This document shows, one piece after another, positions 3,704 through 50,812 of a DNA stretch of 64,000 nucleotides. The notes beneath the pieces are model-generated. The model had not been told where the DNA came from, searched no databases, and saw only the letters and a list, made by a program, of their open reading frames with translations. The stretch spans positions 1,922,001-1,986,000 of the forward strand of contig NZ_CP019431.1 in NCBI RefSeq assembly GCF_009866765.1, in the 5' to 3' direction. The translations under genes and the position numbers were made by a program. Position 1 is the first letter of the stretch. Each line of letters begins with the position of its first letter. This DNA is from Pseudomonas sp. S35 (GTDB lineage: Bacteria > Pseudomonadota > Gammaproteobacteria > Pseudomonadales > Pseudomonadaceae).

Positions 3704-3872
3704 GCCGTTCATGCGCCGATTTAAACAGCTAATTGCGGGGCGCCACCGGACTCGATGCAGTCCTACAGAAGCAAGCTCTCCCTCGATGAGACCGCTTCGA
3801 AATACCGCTAAAGCGCTGGTTCGGTGTTGCCTCTCACCTGCCCGCAGACTTTTGAGGCAGAGACACGACTCG
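3704..3872 (+). promoter_or_regulatory. Structured 5' leader with a sequestered ribosome site
   Basis: About 165 bases of untranslated leader lie between the promoter at 3674-3703 and ATG 3873. Visible pairings are GGACT/AGTCC (3748-3752 with 3759-3763), CGCT/AGCG (3806-3809 with 3812-3815), and TGCCTC (3828-3833) with GAGGCA (3854-3859). The last stem buries the only Shine-Dalgarno-like GAGG ahead of the start codon, as expected for translational control by ligand, protein or small RNA. I cannot assign it to a named riboswitch class. Confidence 0.5.
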
Positions 3873-4181
3873 ATGAATGCACTACGCCCCCTGATACGCC
3901 TGGCCCCGATCACTGCGGACCTTACTCAGCGCAATCCAAAAATCCTCTTGGGCGGTAAGCACCAGCCGACGCTGTTGCGCTACCTGGACGGTTGGCCACG
4001 TCGCACAGGGCGGCCGTCGGCATTCCTGATCCAGTTTGTTGAAGACGGCGACTCCCTAGCCCGCTTCGCCAGCAACAGTTTTGACCTCGCTGTTATCCAG
4101 GCGCCTGACGCCAGTGGCGCGCCAGAAGTGATCCGTCAATTGACGCGTATTGCGCGGCAAGGCCTGATCGCCCGTCGCTGA
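3873..4181 (+). CDS. Small protein of unknown function
   Basis: A 102-residue protein starting MNALRPLIRLAPITADL. I do not recognise it with certainty. The middle (FLIQFVEDGDSLARFASNSF) and the following DLAVIQAP, then EVIRQLTRIARQGLIARR, vaguely resemble the second half of a class I SAM-dependent methyltransferase (acidic strand, then the helix after motif IV). It is far too short for a full enzyme and has no glycine-rich SAM loop. ATG 3873 is chosen because the reading frame upstream runs through the promoter and a structured leader. It ends 8 bases from the convergent GldG-like gene. Confidence 0.6.
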   Translation: MNALRPLIRLAPITADLTQRNPKILLGGKHQPTLLRYLDGWPRRTGRPSAFLIQFVEDGDSLARFASNSFDLAVIQAPDASGAPEVIRQLTRIARQGLIARR

Positions 4182-4189
4182 AGTTTCAA

Positions 4190-5878
4190 TCAAGAGGTTG
4201 TTGACGGTGTTGGCCAGCGGCGATGACGCCATTGGTACAGGCCCCAGGCAATCAGGCAGAGCAATGTTGGCACCGGCACAATCACCAGCAGTTTGACGTT
4301 TCGCTCCAGGCGATGGACAGGCGCGTAAGCATCGACTTTCAGGGCATGCAGTTCAATCGGCAGGCGCAGGCGCTCCTTGTTGAGCGCTTGCAATTGGGTA
4401 CTGGTGTCGATCATTACGGTGCCGAGGGCGGTAATCTCTGGGTTCAGACGTCGCCACTCATTTTCGGTCAGTACCAGTTGTTGCTCCAGGTCCCTGGCTT
4501 GGTCCTGATAGGCTTGCTCGGCGGCTTCGCGCAGGTTTTGCAGTACCTGCAATGAGTGGCGCGTTACTGCATGGGGGCGAATGTTCGCGAGCGGGTCAGG
4601 CGCAGCGAGGTTATCCAGGGTGTTCAATACAAACAGCCTGTTGCCGGGTTGCATCGAGCCGCCTGGTTTCTCGCTGAGCAGATCCATGTCGGCGACCACC
4701 ACCACATGAACGTACGCAGCCTCCTGCACCCCTGGCGGCTGCCCATTGATGCCGTCAAAAAATGCCGACTCAGCGGGCCCCTCGATACGGGCTGCGATGA
4801 CATGGCGTTCACCCTGTGTGGCCGGTTTACTGTCCAGCGCGTCAAAATCTACCAAGGCAGACTTGGCGGAGCTGAGCAGCAGCGGGGTAAAGAGGGTCCG
4901 GCTATTATCGAGGGGAAAGAGCGCGCCGCTACTGGATACCGTCACTGAGTTCAGCTTCCAAGTGCTGACGTCGTCTGTATTCATGGCCTGGCGCGGTAGG
5001 GTTAACACCGATTGTGGGTGCTCCCGTGAGGCATGGATGGAGTCGACCAGCACCTTGTTGCTCGGCATGGTAATGCCCCAACTGGCAAGTAGCCCATCCA
5101 GCCCAGCGTTTGAGGGGGCAGCCTGGGGGGGCAATTCGCTCAGGGTGTCCATGAACACCAGAAGTTTGCCGCCCCCCATTACGAATTGATCAACCGCGTA
5201 GAGGGTTTGCTCCGACAGCATGCGGGGGTGGACGAGCATTAAGGTTTTGATCCTGACGGGGATATGGTCGGCATTGGACACCAGTTCCGTGAGATCAAAA
5301 TGCTTGGGTAACTCTTCCAGCAATGACGGCAGGAACTCCTGCGCCGGTAGCCCTGACAGCAGTCCGACAGCAGCCGGTTCGGGATGAAGCAGTCGGGTGA
5401 TCAAGTGGCTGATTTCGTACTCCAGAAAACTTTCCCTGTCCGGGCTGAATGACTCGATGCGTTGCGCAGCCCCGCCATCACGGGTGCCAATAAGGCCAAG
5501 GAATCCCTGTTTGTCATCGAGCCCATATAAACCTGCTTTGTAGGCGTCTTCTGAAAACGGCGCAGGGTCGATAATGTGCAGAGTGATCCTGCCCTTAGCC
5601 GCTTTTTCGAACGCCTTCAGCTTTTCTTCAACGCGCTGGCCGTAATGTTTCAGTGCGGGGTTTTTTACTGTGTGCTTGTTGGAGTTGAAATAATAAAAAA
5701 CCAGTGGGCTTTCCAAGGTGGTAAGCAACTGCAGTGTGGCCGGCGATAATGTATTGGATCTTTGTTGTGAGAAGTCCCAGCGCACATCAGGGAGTTTTAC
5801 CGCCCAGACGAGGTTGAAGGCCAGGAAAATTAACGAAATGACGCAAAGTGTCATTCCGGTGCGCAGAGCGGATCGCAT
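4190..5878 (-). CDS. GldG-like ABC transporter auxiliary protein
   Basis: A 562-residue protein with an N-terminal membrane segment (about residues 9-27, MTLCVISLIFLAFNLVWA), a long extracytoplasmic region and a C-terminal membrane helix (about residues 528-548, LLVIVPVPTLLCLIAWGLY) ending in a basic tail. DVRWDFSQQRSNTLSPAT is the typical opening of GldG/IftA-type auxiliary subunits (COG3225): a serine-threonine-rich start followed by the fold containing a VDQFVMGGGKLLVFMD segment. It is the last gene of a tight set with the permease (15-base gap) and ATPase. In Bacteroidetes this family works with GldA/GldF in gliding; here the substrate or partner is unknown. Confidence 0.8.
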   Translation of the reverse strand: MRSALRTGMTLCVISLIFLAFNLVWAVKLPDVRWDFSQQRSNTLSPATLQLLTTLESPLVFYYFNSNKHTVKNPALKHYGQRVEEKLKAFEKAAKGRITLHIIDPAPFSEDAYKAGLYGLDDKQGFLGLIGTRDGGAAQRIESFSPDRESFLEYEISHLITRLLHPEPAAVGLLSGLPAQEFLPSLLEELPKHFDLTELVSNADHIPVRIKTLMLVHPRMLSEQTLYAVDQFVMGGGKLLVFMDTLSELPPQAAPSNAGLDGLLASWGITMPSNKVLVDSIHASREHPQSVLTLPRQAMNTDDVSTWKLNSVTVSSSGALFPLDNSRTLFTPLLLSSAKSALVDFDALDSKPATQGERHVIAARIEGPAESAFFDGINGQPPGVQEAAYVHVVVVADMDLLSEKPGGSMQPGNRLFVLNTLDNLAAPDPLANIRPHAVTRHSLQVLQNLREAAEQAYQDQARDLEQQLVLTENEWRRLNPEITALGTVMIDTSTQLQALNKERLRLPIELHALKVDAYAPVHRLERNVKLLVIVPVPTLLCLIAWGLYQWRHRRWPTPSTTS

Positions 5879-5893
5879 TGTAGACGTTCCTTC

Positions 5894-6619
5894 TCAGCTA
5901 TTTTTGAAATTGATAATAACGATCGTTGCAGCGAGGAACGCAACCATCATGCTAATGAAGTATGCACTCTCACGTAGGGTGAGCAGGCCGTTGTCAATCA
6001 GTTCAAAGCGCAAGGATGGGCTCAACGACCTCAACTTATCGAAAATCCACAAGGGTTCTTGGTGTTCAAGCGCATCCAGTACGGACGACAATCCACTGGC
6101 CATTAACAGCAGGCTCAGCGTTAACATGAAAATGACGAGGCGTTGACGGGTCAATGCGCAAATCAGGCAGCCGACAGAGAGATAACTTCCCACTAATAAC
6201 CAACTGCTCAAAAATTGCGAGGCGATCAACCCGTTATCCGCTGTGCCGAGTAGGTTGACCGCTACCACAATAGGAGAACTCAGCAGTAACACCATGGCGG
6301 CGACTGCCCAGACTGCCAGAAACTTTCCTATGACCAGTTCCGCCGGTGTGATGGGCAACGTTTTCATCAGTTCACCAAAACCACTCTGGGACTCATCCAG
6401 CCAAAGTTGGGAGGACAGTGCCGGGACCAATATCAGATACAACCACGGGTGCCATGAAAAGAAGCCTTGCAGGTCGCTGCTGCCGCGTTCCAGCAGTTGG
6501 CTCGTGTGTAACCCCAGCGTTATGGACAGTATCAGGAACGCGGTGCTGCCCAGATAAGTCATAGGGGCCAATAGATAGCTGGCAAGTTGGCGTTTGAAAA
6601 CAGGGTACAACAGGTTCAA
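5894..6619 (-). CDS. ABC-2/GldF-type permease
   Basis: A 241-residue polytopic protein with about six membrane helices. MNLLYPVFKRQLASYLLAPM followed by TYLGSTAFLILSITLGLH matches the opening of GldF-like ABC-2 permeases, in which the N-terminal helix is preceded by an amphipathic F/L-rich segment. Later come WLDESQSGFGELMKTLPITPAELVIGKFLA, the conserved coupling segment of the family, and a C-terminal helix ending IIINFKNS. Its ATG overlaps the stop of the upstream ATPase gene by 4 bases, indicating translational coupling. Base composition is lower in GC than in its neighbours. Confidence 0.83.
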   Translation of the reverse strand: MNLLYPVFKRQLASYLLAPMTYLGSTAFLILSITLGLHTSQLLERGSSDLQGFFSWHPWLYLILVPALSSQLWLDESQSGFGELMKTLPITPAELVIGKFLAVWAVAAMVLLLSSPIVVAVNLLGTADNGLIASQFLSSWLLVGSYLSVGCLICALTRQRLVIFMLTLSLLLMASGLSSVLDALEHQEPLWIFDKLRSLSPSLRFELIDNGLLTLRESAYFISMMVAFLAATIVIINFKNS

Positions 6620-7542
6620 TTGAGTGCCTCGTTGCTCAAGTGATGAACGACATCGTTGAGACGGCCTAGTTCTAGATTCAAAGTGTCTATTGCCCAGCGG
6701 CGATTGACGATCAATGCGCTGATAGCTGGGTAGATGCTGTGCCCTGGCAACGCGAGAACGGTCACGGTGCCAGCGCCGTAGCGGTTTTCTTCGATGCCTG
6801 CAACGCCGGGCAAGACGGCGAGGGCCAAAAAATCAAGCGAAGTTTGTGTGGCCAGGGTGACGGCCTGGAAGTACCGAGAGCTGCGTTGCAACTCGCGTAT
6901 CGGAGCATCCGCCAGCAGGCGGCCCTCTACGAGAACCATGGCGCGCGTGCAGATGTTTTCCAGTGCTGCGCAATCTTGAGCAGCAACGATGACGGTCATT
7001 TCTTCGGCCAATGACTGGATCAATGTGCCGATCTTGCTTTGATGATGCGGTGCGAGACCTTCGCTCGGTTCGTCCAGCAACAGCACACCGGGGTCGTGCA
7101 GGATTGCCTGGGCAAGGGCGACATTGCGCCTCAGGCTCATAGGGAGTGTATGGATCGGGTAGTCGAGTACCTGAGACAGGTCGAGCCGAGTAGCGGCGCG
7201 CTCCACCCGGCTGCGTTTTTCCGCACCGCGAAAGCCACGAAGCGTGGCGATAAAGTCGAGCAGGCTCCTGACGGACATTGTCGGGTGATTGATGTCGGAT
7301 TCGGGTTGATAGCCAACGGCGCTGCAAGCTTGAGGACCGTGGGTTCTAGTATCAAACCCCAGAATGCTCACGTGCCCGGAAGAGGGGCGTATCGAACCGG
7401 CTATCATTTTAAGTAATGTGGTTTTACCTGCACCTTCCAGTCCAAATAATCCGATGCACTCTTGCTGCTGCGCTGAGAATGAGACGTCGTGGATGACACT
7501 CTTTTTATCTATGTACTTGGTCAGGTTGCTTGTCTCGATCAT
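6616..7542 (-). CDS. GldA-like ABC ATPase with degenerate catalytic motifs
   Basis: A 308-residue nucleotide-binding subunit. The Walker A (GLEGAGKTT, about residues 35-43), the Q-loop region (VGYQPE) and Walker B (GVLLLDEPSEGL) are intact. Three dimer-interface motifs are not. The signature loop reads LPMSLRR where GldA-type ATPases have LSKGxRQR. The D-loop reads GLAPHH instead of GLDPNQ. The switch histidine is replaced, VIVAAQD standing where a -STH- is expected. It may bind ATP but hydrolyse it poorly, or act with a second ATPase. It is the first gene of the set and is read from an AT-rich divergent region. Confidence 0.85.
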   Translation of the reverse strand: MIETSNLTKYIDKKSVIHDVSFSAQQQECIGLFGLEGAGKTTLLKMIAGSIRPSSGHVSILGFDTRTHGPQACSAVGYQPESDINHPTMSVRSLLDFIATLRGFRGAEKRSRVERAATRLDLSQVLDYPIHTLPMSLRRNVALAQAILHDPGVLLLDEPSEGLAPHHQSKIGTLIQSLAEEMTVIVAAQDCAALENICTRAMVLVEGRLLADAPIRELQRSSRYFQAVTLATQTSLDFLALAVLPGVAGIEENRYGAGTVTVLALPGHSIYPAISALIVNRRWAIDTLNLELGRLNDVVHHLSNEALN

Positions 7543-7780
7543 TATGCTTTCTGCTGAATTTATATATGAAGAGGCAGCGCCCTGATGGAGCTGTGCGGGG
7601 CTATATTATAAAAATGGTACGTTCAAAAGTGCGGATTTAAAACGTTAAAGTGTATTTATAGGATAAGTCCTACGGCCAGCCTTATGACGCGCTGAAAGAA
7701 TTGTGAGATGACTAGCAGTTACTAATGGTCAGGTGTTTATCTGGTGTTTAAATATAGTTTGCTTAATGTCGTGAGGTCTG
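7543..7780. promoter_or_regulatory. AT-rich divergent promoter region
   Basis: This 238-base gap between the ATPase and coiled-coil genes is clearly richer in A and T than the flanks. On the minus strand a perfect -10 TATAAT (plus positions 7605-7610) could serve the ATPase gene, giving a leader of about 55 bases; no good -35 is visible at the right distance. On the plus strand GTGAGG (7771-7776) lies just before the coiled-coil gene. Such AT-rich islands are typical targets of MvaT-type silencers in Pseudomonas; that part is inference. Confidence 0.5.
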
Positions 7781-8983
7781 ATGGCTATGATGCTTTTACG
7801 TACCCTTGTTCTTGAACGCGCTGGCGTGGATGCCCCGGTCAACGGTGCATTGTTGTGTGGCTTTGCCATCCCCCAAATCATGTCTAACTTTCTTGTCTAC
7901 AGCCTTGATGAGGAGGCGGAACCCGGCAGTTCCCGGGTATATGTCGCCGCATTGCGTAAGAAACTTGATCGGTACTTTTTGAGCGCCGTGGACGCTCAAG
8001 AAGAACTTCAAGTTGCGATGCGGGTATTTAAGCAAATACTGATGCTGGCAGCTTCCGGCGCCAAGCCCGGCAGTGTTACCGATAGCCAGATTCCTTATCA
8101 TTTTGTCGATTTGAAAGGCTGCAAGTTGCCGCCAGCCCGGCCTGAAGATCATCATTCTGTGGTCATCAAGAAAGCCTTGGTGATGAAGGTGATTACGCTA
8201 GGGACTTCTGCTCCCGTGTCGCCGGCTTTGGAAAGCGCTACGTTGGTCGTTCCGTCCATCCGTTTTTCCTCCCAGATGGCCTCGCCGTTCAGGGCGGCGA
8301 GTAGGCCTGAAGCGGACACGCCGCCATTGCTTGAGCAACTGGTTGAACCGCAACTGCCGCCACAACTGCCGCCACAACCGCAGACGCAACTGCAGGCTGA
8401 ACCGCAACCAGAGCCGCTGCCTCAGGTGTCCGTGGTTGTTGCACCTGCAAACGTTCCGCCCGTTGCTCCTGCTGTCGACGAAAGGCCGGCGCTGTGCGTT
8501 CAGACGGAGCAACACTCGTTGTTTGAGGTGGATAGCACACTGAACAATCTGGCACGTGTCTCCCATGAGCTGACACAGCAAAAGCTGGCTGTGCTCAAGC
8601 AGGCGGAGTCCCTTGAGCAGTGGCATGTGCAACTGCAACAGGGCCATGCTGAGCTTGATGAAAAACGCCAGGAACTGGTTGATCGGACCTTGGAAAAGGA
8701 GGCCACCCTGCAGCTAAGAGTCCAGGCGCTGGAAGGTCGTGAAGCACAGGTGGTAAGTGCTATGGCCGCTCAGCAGCACGAGCAGCATCAACTGGATGAA
8801 CGCGCCCAGGCTCTTGAAAAACGAATCAGCCATGCACAGAGTCAGGAATTGCAGGTGCTTCAGAAAAAGGAGGTGTTGGCTGCCATGCTTGCGCATTTGC
8901 CGGGCCTGCGGCAGAACCTGCAGACAATGCTCATCGAACTGGATCAGACTCTGGATAGTCTTGCCGATACCGAGCAAGCATAG
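7781..8983 (+). CDS. Unrecognised protein: N-terminal domain, Pro/Gln linker, coiled coil
   Basis: A 400-residue protein of no family I can name. Residues 1-155 look globular (MLLRTLVLERAGVDAPVNG, then PGSSRVYVAALRKKLDRYF). Residues about 185-240 are rich in proline and glutamine (repeats of PQLPPQ, QPQTQLQAEPQPEP). Residues about 250-375 form a long heptad-type coiled coil rich in Q, E, L and A. There is no signal peptide or membrane helix, so it is probably cytoplasmic. Starts at 7781, 7787 and 7790 are all possible; GAGG at 7773-7776 gives normal spacing to 7787 or 7790. It faces away from the ABC genes and shares their promoter region. Confidence 0.7.
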   Translation: MAMMLLRTLVLERAGVDAPVNGALLCGFAIPQIMSNFLVYSLDEEAEPGSSRVYVAALRKKLDRYFLSAVDAQEELQVAMRVFKQILMLAASGAKPGSVTDSQIPYHFVDLKGCKLPPARPEDHHSVVIKKALVMKVITLGTSAPVSPALESATLVVPSIRFSSQMASPFRAASRPEADTPPLLEQLVEPQLPPQLPPQPQTQLQAEPQPEPLPQVSVVVAPANVPPVAPAVDERPALCVQTEQHSLFEVDSTLNNLARVSHELTQQKLAVLKQAESLEQWHVQLQQGHAELDEKRQELVDRTLEKEATLQLRVQALEGREAQVVSAMAAQQHEQHQLDERAQALEKRISHAQSQELQVLQKKEVLAAMLAHLPGLRQNLQTMLIELDQTLDSLADTEQA

Positions 8984-9138
8984 GCTCGCGCTGATCTTTG
9001 GCGTTTCGTTTGACGCAAGGTGCCACTGGGTCTGGCTACTTTCCCGCGTTCATTTATCATCAGTTGCTATTCGTCGACGCCTGGCCTTGGTGCTGCGGTG
9101 TATTGGAACCAATGGGCATTTGCTGGGGATGTACGCGT

Positions 9139-9612
9139 TTGAGTACCAAGCTGATTACCAAAGAAGGTCATGAAGCGCTGAAGAAAGAGCTGGATTACCT
9201 GTGGCGAGAAAAACGCCCGGATACCACACGCAAGGTGACATGGGCTGCTTCTCTGGGGGATCGCAGCGAAAACGCGGATTACCAGTACAACAAGAAGCTG
9301 CTGCGTGAGATCGACCGGCGGGTGCGCTACCTGCGCAAACGCTTGGAAGACATGCGGGTAGTGGAGTACATGCCCGAGCAGGAAGGAAAGGTGTTTTTCG
9401 GGGCTTGGGTTGATATTGAAAACGAGCAGGGTGAGACCAAGCGTTTTCGCATCGTTGGCTATGACGAGATCTACGAGCGGATGGACTACATCTCCATCGA
9501 TTCACCGATGGCCCGTGCGCTGTTGCGCAAGGAAGTCGACGATGAGGCTATCGTGCAGACCCCCAACGGCGAGGTGTGCTGGTGGATCACGGCTATCGAG
9601 TACGTGAAGTAG
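9139..9612 (+). CDS. greB: Transcription elongation factor GreB
   Basis: A 157-residue transcript-cleavage factor that rescues backtracked RNA polymerase. The N-terminal coiled coil carries the acidic tip in SLGDRSENADYQYNKK, and the C-terminal globular domain reads VEYMPEQEGKVFFGAWVDIEN. The DYISIDSPMARALLRKEVDDEA end is typical for GreB. The chosen start is TTG at 9139 (STKLITKEGHEALKKELDYL), preceded by GGGGAT; this gives the standard GreB length. Upstream in-frame codons would add an unlikely cysteine- and tryptophan-rich tail of 47 residues. Confidence 0.93.
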   Translation: MSTKLITKEGHEALKKELDYLWREKRPDTTRKVTWAASLGDRSENADYQYNKKLLREIDRRVRYLRKRLEDMRVVEYMPEQEGKVFFGAWVDIENEQGETKRFRIVGYDEIYERMDYISIDSPMARALLRKEVDDEAIVQTPNGEVCWWITAIEYVK

Positions 9613-9657: not shown

Positions 9658-12171
9658 TCAGCCTTCGCGCAATACCGTCAGAGGGCTCGCATTCAGCGCT
9701 CGGCGCGTACCGAAAACCCCGGCCCCGCCGATCAATATTGCCCCGATCACCGGCAGCAGTAATAGCCACGGGTGCGGGTGCCACACCAGATCGAAGGCAT
9801 AGCGATAGAGCGCCCATGTGACCAGTTCGGTGCCCAGTGCGGCCAGTAGGCCGCTGACCGCGCCCAGCAGGCCGAACTCGATGCGCCGTGCCTTGACCAG
9901 CAATTTGCGTTCCGCGCCCAATGCTCGCAGCAGCGCGCCTTGGCGGATACGCTCATCCAGGGTGGCCTGCAAGCCGGAGAAGAGCACCGCCATCCCCGCC
10001 GCCAGCACAAACAACAGCACGTATTCCACGGCCAGGGTCACTTGGGCGAGGATGCTTCGCAACTGCTCCAGCAGCGCCTCGACCTGTAGGATTGTGACTG
10101 CCGGGAAGGCCCGGGCCAGATCGACGATCTGTTGGTCATGACCGGGTGCCAGGTAGAAGCTGGTCAGGTAGGTGGTCGGTAGGTCCTTCAGGGTGCCTGG
10201 CTGGAAGATCATGAAAAAGTTGGGCTGGAAATTATCCCAATTGATGGTGCGCAGGCTCGTCACCCGCGCCTCACGACTTTCCCCACCCACGGTGAATACC
10301 AGGTGGTCGTCCAGCTTGAGTTTGAGGCTTTGCGCAACCTTGGCCTCTACAGAGACACCTGGAGTTCCATCGGTGGGTTGTTGTGACCACCACGAGCCTG
10401 CGGTCAGGGCATTGCCCGGCGGTAGATCGGCAGCCCAGGTCAGGCTCAGGTCACGCTGCACCGCACGGTCACCACTGGAGTCCTTGCTGACAATCTCTTG
10501 CACCGGTTCGCCATTGATGCTGATCAGACGGCCAGGCACCACCGGGTACAACGGCGCGGATTGCGCCTGTACGTCCAGGAGGCGAGCACCAAAGGCGTCT
10601 TTGTCGGCCGGCAGGATATTCAGGGCGAAATAATTGGGCGCATCCTTGGGCAGTTGGTTTTGCCAGGTGTCGAGCAGTTCGCCACGCAGCAGTGCGATCA
10701 AGCCCATGGACAATAGGATCAAACCAAACGCCAGCGACTGGCCGGCAGCAGCCAAGGGGTGACGCAGCAGTTGCCCCAGGCCCAGGCGCCAAGGCAGGGA
10801 TGCACGGGCCAGCAGGCGTCGCAGGCTTTGCAACAGCAGCAGAAGCAGGCCACCCAGCACCAGCGCCGCTAACACGCCTCCCCCCAGCAGGGCGAAGGTC
10901 AGCACCAGGTCGAGGCTCAGGCGCCACATAATCAGGCCCAGGGCGAGCAGCGCTGCGCCGTAGACCATCCAGGTGCTGGACGGGATGGGCAGCAAATCGC
11001 GCCGCAGTACTCGCAGCGGCGGTACCCTGCCCAGCGCGGCCAGCGGCGGTAGGGCGAAGCCTGCGAGCGCCACCAGCCCGGTGCCGATCCCTGCAGCGGC
11101 GGGCAGCAGGCCGCCGGGCGGAACGTCCGCGGGCAGCAAATCGTGCAGGAAATAAAACAGACCAAATTGCGCGAGCCAACCGAGCAAGGCGCCGGCCAGG
11201 CTGGCCAGCAGGCCGAGTACGCTCAATTGCAGGCTGAACAGCAACATGGCTTCACGTCGCGACAACCCCAGGCAACGCAGCAGCGCACTGGCGTCGAACC
11301 GTCGGGTGGCGAAGCGGTTGGCCGACAACGCCACGGCCACACCCGCCAGCAACACGGCAACCAGGCTGGCCATGTTCAGGTAGCGCTCTGCTTTGCCGAG
11401 CGCGCCGCCGATTTGTTGGTTGCCATCCCGTGAGTCCTGCAGGCGCTGGTTGGCAGCGAGTCCTGGCTTGATGAGGTCACGATAGGTGTGCAGCACAGTG
11501 CTGTCCTGCGGCCCGCGCCACAGTTCGCGGAAACTGACGCGGCTGCCTGGCTGGACCACGCCGGTGGCGTCCAGGTCTGCCAGGTTGATCATCACTCGGG
11601 GCGTGAGGCTGTAGAAGTTGCCGGCGCGGTCGGGCTCATAGGTGAGCACGCGGGCCAGGCGCAGGGTCTTCATGCCCACATCGATGCTGTCGCCGATTTT
11701 GAGATCCAGTGCCGTCAGCAGTCTCGCCTCCACCCAGGCTTCACCGGGTTTCGGGCCGCCGCCCGCGGCTTCATCGCCAAAGGGTGCAGCAGTGCTCTTC
11801 AGTTCGCCCCGCAGTGGGTACTGCTCGTTGACTGCCTTGATGCTGGAGAGTTGGATGCCGTTATCGGTGGCAATGACGCTGGAAAACTCCACCACGCTGG
11901 CATGATCCAGGCCCAGTTCAGTCCCGGATTTGATTTGTTCGGAGCGGGCTGGCGAGCTGCCCTCAAGTACCAGGTCGGCGCCCAGGAACTCAGTGGCGCG
12001 CAACAACATGGCGCCGTTAAGGCGCGCGCCGAAGTAGCCGATGGCGGTGCTGGCCGCCACGGCCACCAGCAAGGCGAAGAACAATACGCGCAATTCGCCG
12101 GCGCGGGCGTCGCGCAGTAATTGGCGCATGGCAAGGCTGAACAGGCGTAACAGCGGCAAGCGTGCCATCAA
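9658..12171 (-). CDS. ABC transporter permease, YbbP/FtsX type
   Basis: An 837-residue inner-membrane protein with an N-terminal helix ([20 protein letters not shown] then [17 protein letters not shown]), a large periplasmic MacB-like region, two FtsX modules (about residues 255-380 and 715-830) and central helices around residues 400-500. This is the ten-helix layout of the YbbP (LolCE-superfamily) permeases. Its start overlaps the stop of the ATPase gene by 4 bases (ATGA). With YbbA it is thought to act on envelope hydrophobic substrates; the actual substrate is unsettled. Complete, no odd features. Confidence 0.9.
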
Positions 12172-45893: not shown

Positions 45894-48800
45894 TTAGCTG
45901 TCCAGCTCTCGAAGTTGCACTTGCAGCATCCTTTCCAGTTCCAGCATCAGCTTTTCCAGGGATTTCACACTGGCCTCGATCAGTGGCCGGTCATCGTCTC
46001 GGGCGCATGCCTGCTCAAGGGCTTCGCACTGCGCTGCCAGCGAGTGCGCTTGAACGATGCGCGCAGCGCCTTTGATCTTGTGGGCCTGCTCGATGATGTG
46101 CTGGGACGTAGCCTGCGCAGCCATCAGCGCGAGCAGCTCCTGGCGATCATGGCGGCTGCTGCTCAACAGCTCCTCCAGCAGGCGTCGACTCATTTGTGGG
46201 TCTCCGCCGGTAAGGGCTTGGAAGTTGCCAAGGTCCAAAATCAGCTCACTGGGTTGAGGGCTGATCTTGGCCAGTTGGCGCTCCAGCGCTGTGAGACTGA
46301 TGGGTTTGAACAGGCAGTCATTCATGCCCGCCAGGGCGCAGCGCTGCTTCTCTTCGGGCTGTGCATTGGCGGTGAAACCCAGCACCACGCACGGTGTCAG
46401 TTGCTCGCGCTGCTCGTATTCGCGGATCGAGCGACTCAACTCGTAGCCATTCATGATGGGCATGTTGCAGTCGGCGATCACCAGGTCGAAGTGCTCCTGG
46501 CGCCAGGCCTGAAAGCCCGTTGCACCGTTCTGGGCGGCGGTGAACTGGTGGCCCAGATAGCCAAGCTGCTGGCACATCAATAGACGGTTTGCGGGGTGAT
46601 CGTCGACCACCAGTACATTGAGCACGGGGGCGGCCGTGGGCGCCTGGGTCTTGAGCTCGTCCACGGGCAGTAGCGGTTGCAGACGAGTCATCTTCAGGTT
46701 CACATGCACTTGGGTGCCGACCATTGGTACGCTGCTCAGGCTGAGCTGTCCGCCCATCATTGCGCAGAGGCTGCGGCAAATCACTAGCCCAAGGCCCGCG
46801 CCAGTCCTGGCCAACTGCCCGGAGTTGTCGGCCTGGGCAAAGGGCTCGAAAAGACGCCGCTGGTCATCCCGGCTGATGCCGATGCCCGTGTCTTCCACCA
46901 CCAGTTTCATTTCGGTCTGTTGCTCCAGTTGGGTGGGCAATACTTCCACTTTGATTTTTACCTCGCCGCGCTCGGTGAACTTGATGGCATTGCTGACCAG
47001 GTTGGACAGCACCTGCTTGAAACGCAGTGGGTCGATCAGCACTTCGGTGTTATCGAGGTCGGGCTTGAACTCCAGCGACAGGCTAAGGGTTTTCTGTCGG
47101 GCCAGGCCGTCGAAGACCCGTACCACTGACTCAATCACTTCGCGCAGATTTACCCGTTCCGGTGCCAGGCTCAGGCGGCCGGACTCAATGCGGGCGATAT
47201 CCAGGATATCGCCGATCAGTTCCAGCAGATCCTTGGCCGAGTTGTAGGCCACTTCGATGGCCGGGCGATCGAGATGGCCCTGGTCCGCGCGCTTGAGGGT
47301 CAGTTCCAGCATGCCAATCACGGCGTTCATCGGCGTGCGGATCTCGTGGCTCATGGTGGCCAGGAACGTACTTTTGGCCCGGTTGGCTTCGTCAGCCCGC
47401 TCCTTGGCAGCGCGAAGCTCGTCGAACAACTGGCGTCGCTCGCTGATATCGATCCAACCCCCGATGATGCCCTGGACCTCACCGACAGAGTCGCGATACG
47501 GCAGGATCCAGTGGTAGATCGTGAGTTTTTTTCCGCGAATGTGCAGGGTTCGGTCCAGGATCAGCGGATTGCCCTCGGCCACCACACGTTGATAATCGGC
47601 ATGGTATTGCGCCGCTTCCGTGGCGAGGGCGGTGTTCACCTGCATCACCGTTTTGCCGATCACGTCCTCACGCTTGACGTCAAACACCTGCAGGTAGCTG
47701 TCGTTGCAGGTCTGCAGCAAGCCCTTGTGATCACGTACGTAGATAGGATGCGGGGTTTCATTGACCAGGGCGCGCATGAACTCGAACTGATCGTTGAGGG
47801 CTCGCTCCGCCATTTTGCGGTGCTTGATCTGGCGGCGCATGTAGGCGTTCCAGGTCAGGGAGACCAGCAGCAGTAGCCCGGTGCCGATGACTATTCGGGC
47901 AATCAGTTGGTGATAGTCGCGCCAGTAGCTGTCGGATGCGGCGGTGTAGCCTCGCCAGCGACTGTTGATCACCCCTAGTTCATCCGGGGCGATGCTGAGC
48001 AGGGCCTTGTCGAGAATCGAGCTGAGTTCGGTGGCGCTGCGTGAGGTGGCCAACGTGAAGGCCGCGGGCGTCGTGCCAATGCTGAAGCTGATTTGAACGT
48101 TATCCTGGAACACCTGCGATGACAGGAAGTAGTTGGCGACGACCAGGGTATTGACTGCACCCTCCACGCGCCCCTGTGCGAGCAATTCGGTGGCCTTGAA
48201 CGTATCGCCTGCTTCCACCAGATGAATCTTCGGAAAATTATCGCGCAGGAATTTCGCAGGCGGGCTGCCTTGAGTGACCGCCAGGCGCTTGCCTTCCATC
48301 TCTTCCAGGCTGGTGGGGGCTTGGTTCTCCTTGCGCGTCAACATCACATAGGAGTTTTCCAGGTAGGGCCGGGTGAAGTTCAACTGGGATTCGCGTTCGA
48401 GGCTGGGGACGATCGCGCCGATGATGTCTGCTTTGCCGGTCTCGACATGTTCGATCATCGTATTCACATCACGCCCGCGCTGGATTTCGAAACGCAACCC
48501 GGTACGCAGGCGAATCAGTTCCAGCAGGTCGGCGGTGATGCCGCGAAAGTTGCCATCCCCATCGAAGAATGTGAGCGGCGCGAAGGTTTCATTCACGAGC
48601 ACCTTGACCGTCGGGTGCTCCTTCAACCAGCGCGCCTCGCGCTGAGTCAGTTGCAGCTTCTGGTCCGTCAACAAAATATCGCTGCCGGCGCTCCAGCGCT
48701 TGGCGATCGCTTCCCGTTCAGTGCCAGGCACGGCCTCCAGGACTGCGTCGACGATGCTCTGCAGGATGAGCTGCTGCTGGGGCATGGCAAAGCTGAAGCC

Positions 48801-49538
48801 ATAAGCTTCGTGCTTGCCGAAATTGGCCATGCGAATGTTCTTCAGGTAGCCCTTGTTGATCATGTAATGGGTGGAGATGGTGTCGCCGAGAAACACGTCT
48901 GCCTTGTCGAATGCCACCGCATTCAACGCATTTTGATAAGACGGGTAGGCGCGGATAATCGCCTTGGGGTAGAGCTTTTCGACCTCTCCCAGTGGCAGGT
49001 AATGGTAGACCAGGGCCAGGCGCATTCCTGCCAGGCCATCATTCAGGCTACGGGTTTCCCCTTCGCGTGTGACCAGAACGGGCTGGTCCACGGCATAGGG
49101 CGCCGACAGGATCAGGTTGGGGCGTGCTGCCTCAAAGCCGTTGGCGGAGCCCAACAGATCGATTTCACCTGTTTCGAGCGCGCTGATGGCAGCTTCTCTG
49201 GAGGGGTAGCGCAGGACCTTCACGGGCAAGGCCAGTGCCTTGGCCAGCAAACCCGCATAGTCGGCGGTGAGTCCTTCGTAATCACGCCCGCTGGAAGTGA
49301 GATCGAAGGGCGGGTAGTCAGGGGACGCAGTACCCAGCAGCAGTTCGCGTTTGTTTCGCAACCACTGGCGTTGGGTCTTGTTCAGGTGGGTTTCCAGTTG
49401 TATTGAGCCTGCACGACTCAGTAAGTTGAAATGTTCCGCGCCCGTTTGAGGCGTTGCAGGCACGGCAGTGCTGAAGCACAAGCCGGCACTCAATATGATC
49501 AGATAGTCCTTTATACACCTGGGCATCCGCTTTCTCAC
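45894..49538 (-). CDS. BvgS-type hybrid sensor kinase, RocS2-like
   Basis: A 1214-residue unorthodox kinase. Domains: signal peptide near residues 8-30; two periplasmic Venus-flytrap (SBP_bac_3) domains (about 55-290 and 310-540); one TM near 553-573; PAS (about 595-715); HisKA (FLATMSHEIRTPMNAVIG); HATPase; receiver (VLVVDDHPANR, IADCNMPIMNG); and C-terminal HPt (EQAHKIKGAARIV). It is the layout of RocS1/RocS2, which control fimbriae and biofilm genes. Start GTG 49538 overlaps the rocA2-like stop (GTGA); ATG 49526 is an alternative. Next to a dGTPase gene, as with RocS2 of P. aeruginosa (from memory). Confidence 0.88.
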   Translation of the reverse strand: MRKRMPRCIKDYLIILSAGLCFSTAVPATPQTGAEHFNLLSRAGSIQLETHLNKTQRQWLRNKRELLLGTASPDYPPFDLTSSGRDYEGLTADYAGLLAKALALPVKVLRYPSREAAISALETGEIDLLGSANGFEAARPNLILSAPYAVDQPVLVTREGETRSLNDGLAGMRLALVYHYLPLGEVEKLYPKAIIRAYPSYQNALNAVAFDKADVFLGDTISTHYMINKGYLKNIRMANFGKHEAYGFSFAMPQQQLILQSIVDAVLEAVPGTEREAIAKRWSAGSDILLTDQKLQLTQREARWLKEHPTVKVLVNETFAPLTFFDGDGNFRGITADLLELIRLRTGLRFEIQRGRDVNTMIEHVETGKADIIGAIVPSLERESQLNFTRPYLENSYVMLTRKENQAPTSLEEMEGKRLAVTQGSPPAKFLRDNFPKIHLVEAGDTFKATELLAQGRVEGAVNTLVVANYFLSSQVFQDNVQISFSIGTTPAAFTLATSRSATELSSILDKALLSIAPDELGVINSRWRGYTAASDSYWRDYHQLIARIVIGTGLLLLVSLTWNAYMRRQIKHRKMAERALNDQFEFMRALVNETPHPIYVRDHKGLLQTCNDSYLQVFDVKREDVIGKTVMQVNTALATEAAQYHADYQRVVAEGNPLILDRTLHIRGKKLTIYHWILPYRDSVGEVQGIIGGWIDISERRQLFDELRAAKERADEANRAKSTFLATMSHEIRTPMNAVIGMLELTLKRADQGHLDRPAIEVAYNSAKDLLELIGDILDIARIESGRLSLAPERVNLREVIESVVRVFDGLARQKTLSLSLEFKPDLDNTEVLIDPLRFKQVLSNLVSNAIKFTERGEVKIKVEVLPTQLEQQTEMKLVVEDTGIGISRDDQRRLFEPFAQADNSGQLARTGAGLGLVICRSLCAMMGGQLSLSSVPMVGTQVHVNLKMTRLQPLLPVDELKTQAPTAAPVLNVLVVDDHPANRLLMCQQLGYLGHQFTAAQNGATGFQAWRQEHFDLVIADCNMPIMNGYELSRSIREYEQREQLTPCVVLGFTANAQPEEKQRCALAGMNDCLFKPISLTALERQLAKISPQPSELILDLGNFQALTGGDPQMSRRLLEELLSSSRHDRQELLALMAAQATSQHIIEQAHKIKGAARIVQAHSLAAQCEALEQACARDDDRPLIEASVKSLEKLMLELERMLQVQLRELDS

Positions 49539-50161
49539 ACTAGCGCGTTTCGTTTTGCCATCTCGATAAGTTCTACCAAGGACTTGGCTTGAAGTTTCTG
49601 CATGAGCCTCTTTTTATAAGTGCTGACTGTTTTGTTACTTAAAAACATGCCTTTGGCTATTTCTTTGTTGGTGCGGCCCTGGGCAAAAAGTTGCAATACC
49701 ATTAACTCACGATCATTAACGGCCTTGAAGAGTTCTAGTTCCTTGAAGTCCACGCCGTCTGCACCGTTGGTGTTCAATGCCTGGCTGGGGAAATAGTTGT
49801 AGCCGGACAGCACTGCACGGATGGCACTCAGCAGTTCACTCAGGTCACCTTCCTTGCAGACGTAGCCGTCGGCGCCCGAGCGCATGCAGCGAGTGGCAAA
49901 CAACGTCGGCGACTGGGCCGTCAGAACCAGGGTTTTCATCGGGGTGTTCATGGCGTTGAATCGGCAGAGTACTTCCAGTCCGTCGAGTTTCGGGATGCTG
50001 ATATCCAGAATGATCAGATCTGGCAGGCATTCGCGGACCATTTGTATTGCGTCGCATCCGTTATCCGTTTCGCCAATGACTTTGTAACCTTCGTGTTCCA
50101 GCAACATTCGGATGGCGAGCCTTATAACCGGATGGTCATCGATAATAAAAACTGTGTTCAT
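49535..50161 (-). CDS. NarL/LuxR-type response regulator, RocA2-like
   Basis: A 208-residue regulator: receiver (VFIIDDHPVIRLAIRMLLEHEGYKVIGETDNG, DLIILDISIPKLDGLEV, TLVLTAQS, GYVCKEGDLSELLSAI) and LuxR HTH (NDRELMVLQLFAQGRTNKEIAKGMFLSNKTVSTYKKRLMQKL). Partner of the BvgS-type kinase downstream, with 4-base overlap. Start ATG 50161 (MNTVFIIDDHPVIR). Confidence 0.9.
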   Translation of the reverse strand: MNTVFIIDDHPVIRLAIRMLLEHEGYKVIGETDNGCDAIQMVRECLPDLIILDISIPKLDGLEVLCRFNAMNTPMKTLVLTAQSPTLFATRCMRSGADGYVCKEGDLSELLSAIRAVLSGYNYFPSQALNTNGADGVDFKELELFKAVNDRELMVLQLFAQGRTNKEIAKGMFLSNKTVSTYKKRLMQKLQAKSLVELIEMAKRNALV

Positions 50162-50252
50162 GATCACGTTCCATACAAGTGCAAATAAAGCGGGCACATT
50201 AGCTCAGAAGAGGAGGGAGGAGCATGAAGGCAAGGGGGGGCAGATATAAAAC

Positions 50253-50264
50253 AGGAAACTTCCT
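50253..50264. promoter_or_regulatory. Possible RocA2-type operator
   Basis: AGGAAACTTCCT is an inverted repeat (AGGAA/TTCCT, 2-base gap), about 90 bases upstream of rocA2, followed by TTCCTACA, a half-site reported for the EvgA relatives of BvgA. The resemblance is to BvgA-like heptads (TTTCCTA), so autoregulation is plausible. Confidence 0.4.
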
Positions 50265-50416
50265 ACACTAAAAAAGGTAAATGCCTACCAGCTGATAAGG
50301 TCGTGTGAGGGGGACGTATGCGCTTTGCTGGCGAGCAGAAAAAATCATGAGGCCTGGAGGCGGGCGGTGATCGTGCGGGCACTTTTCGGCGGTTGGAAAC
50401 GTTTAAAGTCCTACGC

Positions 50417-50812
50417 TTATAGCGTGGAGGGTGTTTGAATCAACTGTATAAGTTCATCTTTGTTCAGTGGCTTTGACAAGTAGCCGAGCAACGGCAGGTC
50501 ACGTTTCATAGCCTGTTTTTTCAGGGCTGACAGTTCAACTGGGGCAAGCCCGCTGAGCAAGATGGCTGCGGTGACAAAGCGCCGGCGGCTGGCGATTTCA
50601 ATCAACTCAAGCCCCGGAAGGTCGGGTAGGCATTGGTCGCACAAGAGAATGTCGAAGGGGGTTTCGGCCAGCGTCATTAGATGGATGGCCTGCGCAGCGT
50701 TTTCGGCAGCTGTCAGGTGCTCGAAGCCGAAACTTCTAAGCAGGTATTGGGTGGCGAGCAGTTGAAAGGGATGGTCCTCCACCAACAGGATGCGAAGGGG
50801 GTATCTGGGCAT
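50417..50812 (-). CDS. Receiver-only protein beside the Roc-like genes
   Basis: A 131-residue single receiver: LRILLVEDHPFQLLATQYLLRSFGFEHLTAAENAAQAIHL, phosphoacceptor Asp in FDILLCDQCLPDLPGLELIE, and the Lys in GYLSKPLNKDELIQLI. The opening VEDHPFQ and end match the receiver of RocR, which in P. aeruginosa is joined to an EAL domain; no EAL follows here. Start ATG 50812 (MPRYPLRILL); another ATG at 50833 adds seven residues. The 255-base gap downstream holds no gene apart from rocA2 control sites. Confidence 0.82.
   Translation of the reverse strand: MPRYPLRILLVEDHPFQLLATQYLLRSFGFEHLTAAENAAQAIHLMTLAETPFDILLCDQCLPDLPGLELIEIASRRRFVTAAILLSGLAPVELSALKKQAMKRDLPLLGYLSKPLNKDELIQLIQTPSTL

Follow-up and report, generated by a model that had tools for sequence, protein, structure and literature searches.

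A 64,000-nucleotide stretch of the Pseudomonas sp. S35 genome (NZ_CP019431.1, 1,922,001 to 1,986,000; hereafter the window, from whose first letter positions are counted) carries a module in which three adjacent ATP-binding cassette (ABC) genes, resembling gldG, gldF and gldA, diverge from a gene for a coiled-coil protein. Among the Pseudomonas genomes compared here, the coiled-coil partner is inherited together with its Gld genes, the module is under purifying selection, and the GldA ATPase has lost much of its catalytic motifs. These features point, with a probability of about 0.5, to an ATPase-impaired Gld-type envelope complex that has the coiled-coil protein as a cytoplasmic subunit and acts as a scaffold or relay.

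The original prediction, drawn from the sequence of the window, had described an undescribed GldA/F/G-class system lying opposite a coiled-coil protein of about 400 residues across a shared AT-rich promoter region. The open reading frames (ORFs), their domains, a median intergenic guanine-plus-cytosine (GC) content of 0.42 over 68 loci and a long predicted C-terminal helix agree with that description. A literature search, which did not reach supplementary tables, found no paper on the Pseudomonas locus among those listed. Two features go beyond what had been predicted: GldA has lost ATPase motifs, and the proteins diverge seven times faster.

Gld-Type Architecture of the Locus

The minus strand of the window encodes a GldG-like protein (4190-5878, 562 residues), a GldF-like ABC-2 permease (5894-6619, 241 residues, TTG start) and a GldA-like ABC ATPase subunit with degenerate catalytic motifs (6616-7542, 308 residues), the start of GldF overlapping the stop of GldA by 4 bp. 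Across a 238-bp AT-rich region, the plus strand carries the coiled-coil partner gene, whose ORF opens at 7781 (400 residues). A start at 7787, shared by the family and giving a gene of 7787-8983 and a protein of 398 residues, is more likely. These assignments combine ORF reading with domain matches and hydrophobicity for GldG, domain and NCBIfam scans for GldF, and Pfam matches and motif alignment for GldA.

GldA matches ABC_tran (E=5e-23). GldF falls narrowly under the Pfam cut-offs of the ABC2_membrane models and matches TIGR03518 (E=3e-30). GldG matches PF09822 (E=1e-38) and PF23357 (E=2e-14) and consists of a transmembrane helix, DUF7088, an ABC_transp_aux domain that would be periplasmic, and a C-terminal transmembrane helix, with hydrophobic segments at residues 3-32 and 526-549. 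Three adjacent genes for an ATPase, an ABC-2 permease and a PF09822 protein mark the Gld-type ABC superfamily, to which the module is assigned by its domains.

The same trio of ATPase, ABC-2 permease and PF09822-bearing GldG makes up the gliding complex of Bacteroidota, whose GldA, GldF and GldG (TIGR03522, TIGR03518 and TIGR03521) are the best NCBIfam relatives of the Pseudomonas GldA and GldF and the sole one of GldG. All three proteins nevertheless miss the equivalog cut-offs (158 against 403 bits for GldA, 106 against 289 for GldF and 54 against 390 for GldG). By these cut-offs and by its motifs, the module is thus classed as no GldA/F/G equivalog, and gliding is not implied. Two further differences from the gliding complex are the added coiled-coil partner and the state of GldA. 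In Flavobacterium, according to an excerpt of PMC9127263, GldA carries Walker motifs and the signature LSKGYRQR, and GldJ and GldK levels fall when point mutations are made in that signature or in the putative active site; the Pseudomonas main-set GldA is degenerate.

Pseudomonas has a second kind of GldAFG set, with canonical motifs, in 42 of 298 genomes. It shares the A-F-G order, its GldG is 38-41% identical, and PF09822 and PF23357 were both confirmed in the GldG of one such locus (L067). In all eight loci fetched, this canonical set differs from the main set in that its ATPase motifs are intact and a coiled-coil gene is absent. GldG is followed by a DUF4340 gene in five of them (L067, L068, L070, L078 and L079) and not in the other three (L069, L071 and L080). 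No DUF4340 gene stands beside GldG in the window, the search having been confined to that neighbourhood; the next gene there is a small opposite-strand ORF without a Pfam match, and the same order is found in 62 named loci.

Co-Inheritance of the Partner With the Gld Genes

The distribution of the module was followed in 298 genomes of the genus Pseudomonas and 228 other genomes of the class. Of the 298, 89 contain a GldG homologue: 46 with 50-100% identity, which form the main lineage, 42 with 38-41%, and the divergent genome G073. The coiled-coil protein itself was found in 48 genomes, one of which (G293) gave a weak match to the coil region only (E 7e-4). This was set aside as a chance coil match, and a profile of the N-terminal domain does not include G293. 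That profile is found in 47 of the 298 genomes, namely all 46 of the main Gld lineage plus G073. It is found in none of the other 251 (42 with only the other Gld set and 209 without Gld) and in none of the 228 other genomes of the class. One profile search and two single-protein database searches, two of the three covering the best 120 of 322 and the best 120 of 364 matches and many matches being nameless, listed no relative outside Pseudomonas among the matches that carry an organism name. The coiled-coil partner is therefore co-inherited with the Gld genes and no chance neighbour, as the original prediction had expected, and the block, present in a minority of the genus (47/298), is not universal.

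The main set comprises 68 loci, one a duplicate, of which 67 were fetched. They were found through the coiled-coil protein, and losses would therefore go unnoticed within the set. The 62 named loci carry Pseudomonas names only, mostly of the P. fluorescens group; a few labelled syringae or viridiflava are probably misnamed. In all 62, the order is ORF3702, GldG-GldF-GldA, coiled coil and greB, with the Gld genes in the same orientation. Beyond GldG, the flank in the window consists of the small ORF, a DoxX gene and an SLT-domain gene, the last two being present in 61 of 62 loci (L127 ends at a contig edge). Beyond the coiled-coil gene lie greB and then an FtsX-type permease with its neighbours; the FtsX-like gene is present in 60 of 62, the exceptions being L091, which ends at a contig edge, and L131. 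In L131, a draft genome, greB is broken after about 52 residues (10492-10671) and the fetched stretch has no subsequent FtsX-like gene. In L093, 1.4 kb separate greB from the FtsX-like gene.

The site also exists empty, since ORF3702 directly adjoins a Gre-family gene in 14 of 22 module-less genomes (16 without Gld and 6 with the other set). At the site in these genomes (L173-L194), the Gre-family gene is 52-55% identical to the window GreB and on the opposite strand in 11 of 22, and 74-88% identical in 6 of 22. Two different Gre genes thus seem to occupy one site.

The association between partner and Gld genes recurs elsewhere. In genomes G017, G099, G205 and G237, a second Gld set lies at another position, and close to it the opposite strand again carries a coiled-coil gene. 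The coiled-coil proteins of these four paralogous loci are 27-31% identical to that of the window. These short-coiled-coil paralogues (L061-L064) share the N-terminal domain in a coiled-coil gene near GldA, on the other strand; they differ from the main set in their canonical ATPase motifs, their short coil (proteins of 251-282 residues) and their rarity, with four intact copies in 298 genomes, at other sites. In L061 (G237, 3724-9395), two short coiled-coil genes stand about 4 kb apart beside a single GldAFG set, and one protein (P0134) looks like the tail of one coiled-coil copy joined to another. A degraded second Gld set in G052 (L065, 3768-9661) is accompanied by a DUF4340-like piece, under the Pfam cut-off, and a coiled-coil gene, perhaps the ancestral combination.

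G073 (L066, 5237-11804) holds a far diverged module at the same site as the main set (GldG 34-38% and GldA 44% identical). Its coiled-coil frame has 639 residues, and a gene for a LuxR-type response regulator is inserted ahead of ORF3702. When GldA, GldF and GldG are concatenated in a tree of 30 rows, the main, short-coiled-coil and canonical sets each form one group, and G073, on a long branch, lies on the same side of the midpoint as the canonical set. It is therefore site and partner, and not this tree, that link G073 to the main set.

Loss of Catalytic Motifs in GldA

Textbook ATPase motifs (GPNGAGKST, LSKGF, DEPTDGLD and ISTH) are present in 12 Pseudomonas GldA proteins, eight from the canonical set and four from the short-coiled-coil paralogues. 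The switch His of the H-loop is found in all 12 of these and in none of the 68 main-set proteins, where its position is filled by Arg in 66, Gln in one (the window) and Asn in one. The D-loop Asp and the signature Ser, likewise invariant in the 12, are lost in 63/68 and 36/68 main-set proteins and kept in 5 and 32, respectively. Other positions hold better, with the signature Gly kept in 53/68 and the Walker B Asp in 66/68. The Walker A glycines are changed in 24 of the 64 loci on the flank tree, requiring at least five changes, or three if starred branches only are counted.

Motif alignment of the window GldA, encoded on the minus strand, finds Walker A intact (GLEGAGKTTL, residues 34-43, 7414-7443). 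LPMSL replaces LSKGF as the signature (residues 133-137, 7132-7146), Ala164 replaces the D-loop Asp (7051-7053), and Gln189 replaces the switch His (6976-6978), as a reading of the codon also indicates. In the GldA of G073, the signature is altered and the switch and D-loop positions hold Thr and Asn, respectively; Walker A is intact.

Changes of this kind are known from other ABC proteins. Excerpts of PMC6222333 report that a His-to-Arg change at the switch position leaves <2% ATPase activity in MalK and HisP, that HlyB H662A retains <0.1%, and that an H/Q change in TAP1 is among those making one TAP site degenerate. In TAP (PMC6222333, excerpt) and TM287/288 (PMC5216877, excerpt), as in the main-set GldA, the switch His or residues of the signature have been lost in nature, and fungal PDR pumps have another residue in place of the switch His at their first site (PMC8124828, excerpt). 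In TAP, TM287/288 and Pdr5, however, a degenerate site is paired with a canonical one, whereas the Pseudomonas locus encodes one ATPase only, which would leave a presumed homodimer with two degenerate sites.

Purifying Selection and Accelerated Divergence

Ratios of nonsynonymous to synonymous divergence (dN/dS) were estimated by the Nei-Gojobori method on up to 184 close pairs of 2145. The medians are 0.19 for GldG, 0.12 for GldF, 0.14 for GldA and 0.16 for the coiled-coil gene, against 0.02-0.09 for the flanks, and no whole-gene pair exceeds 0.30. The module genes are therefore maintained; they are under purifying selection and are not pseudogenes. Their proteins nonetheless diverge fast, with amino-acid distances 7.0 times those of the flanks (0.385 vs 0.055; 63 loci). 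Module and flank distances share one pattern (Mantel r 0.81; 0/499 permutations as high).

This acceleration is specific to the main-set lineage. Main-set GldA has a mean identity of 59% where the FtsX-like protein has 92-94% (538 pairs). In the canonical set, identities of 84-95% for GldA, 89-100% for GldF and 74-96% for GldG accompany 73-94% for the FtsX-like fragment (10 pairs, 5 genomes), which places GldA and GldF at or above the fragment in conservation. Synonymous divergence is also raised, with a median dS of about 0.9-1.0 for the module against 0.24-0.55 for the flanks. Lower codon bias or replacement between species could be the cause.

Predicted Organization of the Coiled-Coil Protein

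AlphaFold2, run on 32 sequences, predicts three parts for the plus-strand partner. An N-terminal alpha/beta domain (residues 1-145, 7787-8221) is predicted to have five strands, a helix, a strand and a helix. Block-mean predicted local distance difference test (pLDDT) values are 84-96 over residues 21-140, except for 63 at residues 91-100, and the mean is 86 when the domain is predicted alone. A Pro/Gln-rich, low-confidence linker follows (residues 146-243, 8222-8515), and then a long helix or coiled coil (residues 244-397, 8516-8977), predicted as helices 244-369 and 371-397 with block means of 93-98 across residues 251-370. Constraint differs among the parts. The N-terminal domain, with a median dN/dS of 0.07, is the most strongly constrained part of the module; the helix follows at 0.14, and the linker reaches 0.34, with a single-pair maximum of 1.00. 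Because it has no hydrophobic segment, the protein is probably cytoplasmic.

The protein has no Pfam match at E <= 0.1, and a structural comparison of its predicted fold returned no significant match. Two relatives bear the precomputed Pfam label PF27881.1; in a fresh Pfam scan, one matches nothing at E <= 0.01 and the other gives a weak coil match. A DUF1292-like pattern in the N-terminal domain was dropped, as it is absent from the best 25 of 40 families in a Pfam scan of 16 members with E up to 10.

Proposed Mechanism and Alternatives

GldG, GldF, GldA and the coiled-coil protein would form one envelope complex, with GldF as its inner-membrane core, GldG as a membrane-anchored periplasmic arm and GldA as a cytoplasmic platform. 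GldA probably still binds nucleotide, because the Walker A Lys and Walker B Asp/Glu are kept. Its hydrolysis would be impaired by the loss of the switch His and D-loop Asp and of much of the signature. The coiled-coil protein may dock through its conserved N-terminal domain onto the cytoplasmic face of GldA/GldF, while its long helix may oligomerise or reach a cytoplasmic partner. Rather than pumping, such a complex would span the inner membrane as a scaffold or relay that is either gated by ATP binding or independent of ATP. We infer the physical association, the loss of hydrolysis, and the relay or scaffold role with its direction. More tentatively, the locus may encode a 'pseudo-ABC' machine, analogous to pseudokinase complexes, in which both ATPase sites of the homodimer are disarmed. 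Rebuilt with a lineage-specific coiled-coil protein, it would serve as a transmembrane relay or scaffold that does not pump and that selection has preserved throughout the P. fluorescens subgroup.

Several observations weigh against an ATPase-impaired scaffold or relay. The Walker A Lys is kept in 68/68 and the Walker B Glu in 67/68 main-set GldA, which would be unexpected if the ATPase were wholly inactive. The H1608A variant of Pdr5 remains active as an ATPase (PMC6222333, excerpt), and a His lies one residue after the switch position in 36/68 main-set proteins, where the switch may have shifted. The paralogous copies with a coiled-coil neighbour have a canonical GldA, so that the partner also occurs where the ATPase is not disarmed. 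Rates of the coiled-coil N-terminal domain covary with those of GldA, GldF and GldG (partial r 0.57-0.64), which speaks for a four-part complex but is weak proof of contact, because the flanking FtsX-like gene also reaches partial r 0.46-0.54 with the module. A few frames, moreover, are defective: L104 has its GldG, and L135 its coiled-coil gene, split into two frames each, and GldF in L130 is short at 194 residues. These three loci are draft assemblies, and the remaining frames are full-length across the 67 fetched main loci.

Much of this would suit a working ATP-driven transporter or force transmitter of the Gld or Nos type, in which GldA hydrolyses slowly and the coiled-coil protein regulates or localises it; any likeness to NosDFY is our assumption. 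The retained Walker Lys and Glu, the displaced His, the Pdr5 precedent (PMC6222333, excerpt) and the canonical GldA of the coiled-coil-bearing paralogues speak for such a transporter. It is nonetheless unlikely in view of the lost switch His, the scarcity of the D-loop Asp and signature Ser and the altered Walker A glycines, and because the Arg found at the switch in 66/68 proteins is the change that leaves <2% activity in MalK and HisP (PMC6222333, excerpt).

A fast arms race with phage, bacteriocin or competitor, the divergence reflecting diversifying selection on a defence or surface trait, would account for amino-acid distances some seven times those of the flanks, the restricted clade distribution and the high dN/dS of the linker. 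The low whole-gene dN/dS (medians 0.12-0.19), the single fixed site and vertical inheritance in the named loci make it improbable, as do merely partial PADLOC matches. A PADLOC search for a known anti-phage defence system gave no specific full-length model match and none at all for GldG or GldF; eleven ATPase models match GldA, the best being mad3 at E=2e-12 over residues 140-205 only, and the coil matches at E=0.006. Still less probable is a slowly decaying remnant, a transporter under relaxed selection with motifs eroding toward loss. Catalytic motifs do erode in several lineages, dN/dS is higher and third-codon-position GC lower than in most flanks, and three drafts have broken or short frames; but the other frames are full-length at a median dS of about 0.9-1.0 with dN/dS far under 1, the N-terminal domain stands at 0.07, and a promoter palindrome is conserved. 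That the coiled-coil protein is an unrelated neighbour sharing only the promoter region, as its opposite strand might suggest, is scarcely credible given complete co-occurrence (46/46 plus G073) and the recurrence of the association at other genomic sites with coiled-coil proteins only about 30% identical.

The Shared Promoter Region

The AT-rich divergent promoter region (7543-7780) contains the conserved blocks GGTACGTT, TCCTACG and GCTGAAA.AAT. Spacing is fixed, GTACG and TCCTAC lying 51 bp apart in 49 of the 53 loci that have both marks. A motif search across loci identified the perfect palindrome TAGGATAAGTCCTA (7659-7672) as a candidate operator. The pattern TARGA-N4-TCCTA occurs in 46 of 67 promoter regions against a shuffled mean of 0.06, a contrast between related sequences to which no probability is attached. 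G073 retains TAGGACCAGTCCTA despite its far diverged proteins.

The genome of the window has three LuxR-type regulators like that of G073 (46-50% identity), one of them inside the window, and binding of the palindrome by a LuxR-type response regulator is our guess. The palindrome may resemble RcsB/EvgA-type half sites. Across the genome, the pattern is found at nine places (seven forward and six reverse matches, palindromes counted twice; the reversed-pattern control gives four and two). The other eight places share no gene type by eye, one lying inside a gene, and no regulon is therefore claimed. On the minus strand at 45894-50812, the window encodes a BvgS/EvgS-type hybrid kinase (SBP_bac_3 in two stretches, PAS, HisKA, HATPase, receiver and Hpt), a BvgA/EvgA-type LuxR response regulator (49535-50158) and a third, single-receiver protein.

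GC Content and Origin

The original prediction had taken the low GC content of the block as a sign of acquisition. The low GC content itself stands, at 0.508-0.564 for the module genes against a mean of 0.601 (sd 0.032) for genes of the window. It persists in the orthologues, with means of 0.51-0.57 across all loci, and the flanking greB is similarly low (0.549). It is therefore an old feature and no evidence of recent acquisition. Across the group, as the named loci and the shared distance pattern show, the module occupies one fixed site and is inherited vertically, so that acquisition, if any, is ancient; weak codon selection explains the low GC content equally well.

Implications for Gld-Type Complexes

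The main-set lineage bears on what Gld-type ABC complexes do apart from gliding, since natural evolution seems to have run a catalytic-dead experiment there across about 60 species-level genomes. Should the complex prove necessary even though ATP is not hydrolysed, the structural role of the family would be separable from its pumping role. As a disarmed ABC ATPase that has a coiled-coil protein of its own, the module also offers a compact, testable case in Pseudomonas, which is amenable to genetics.

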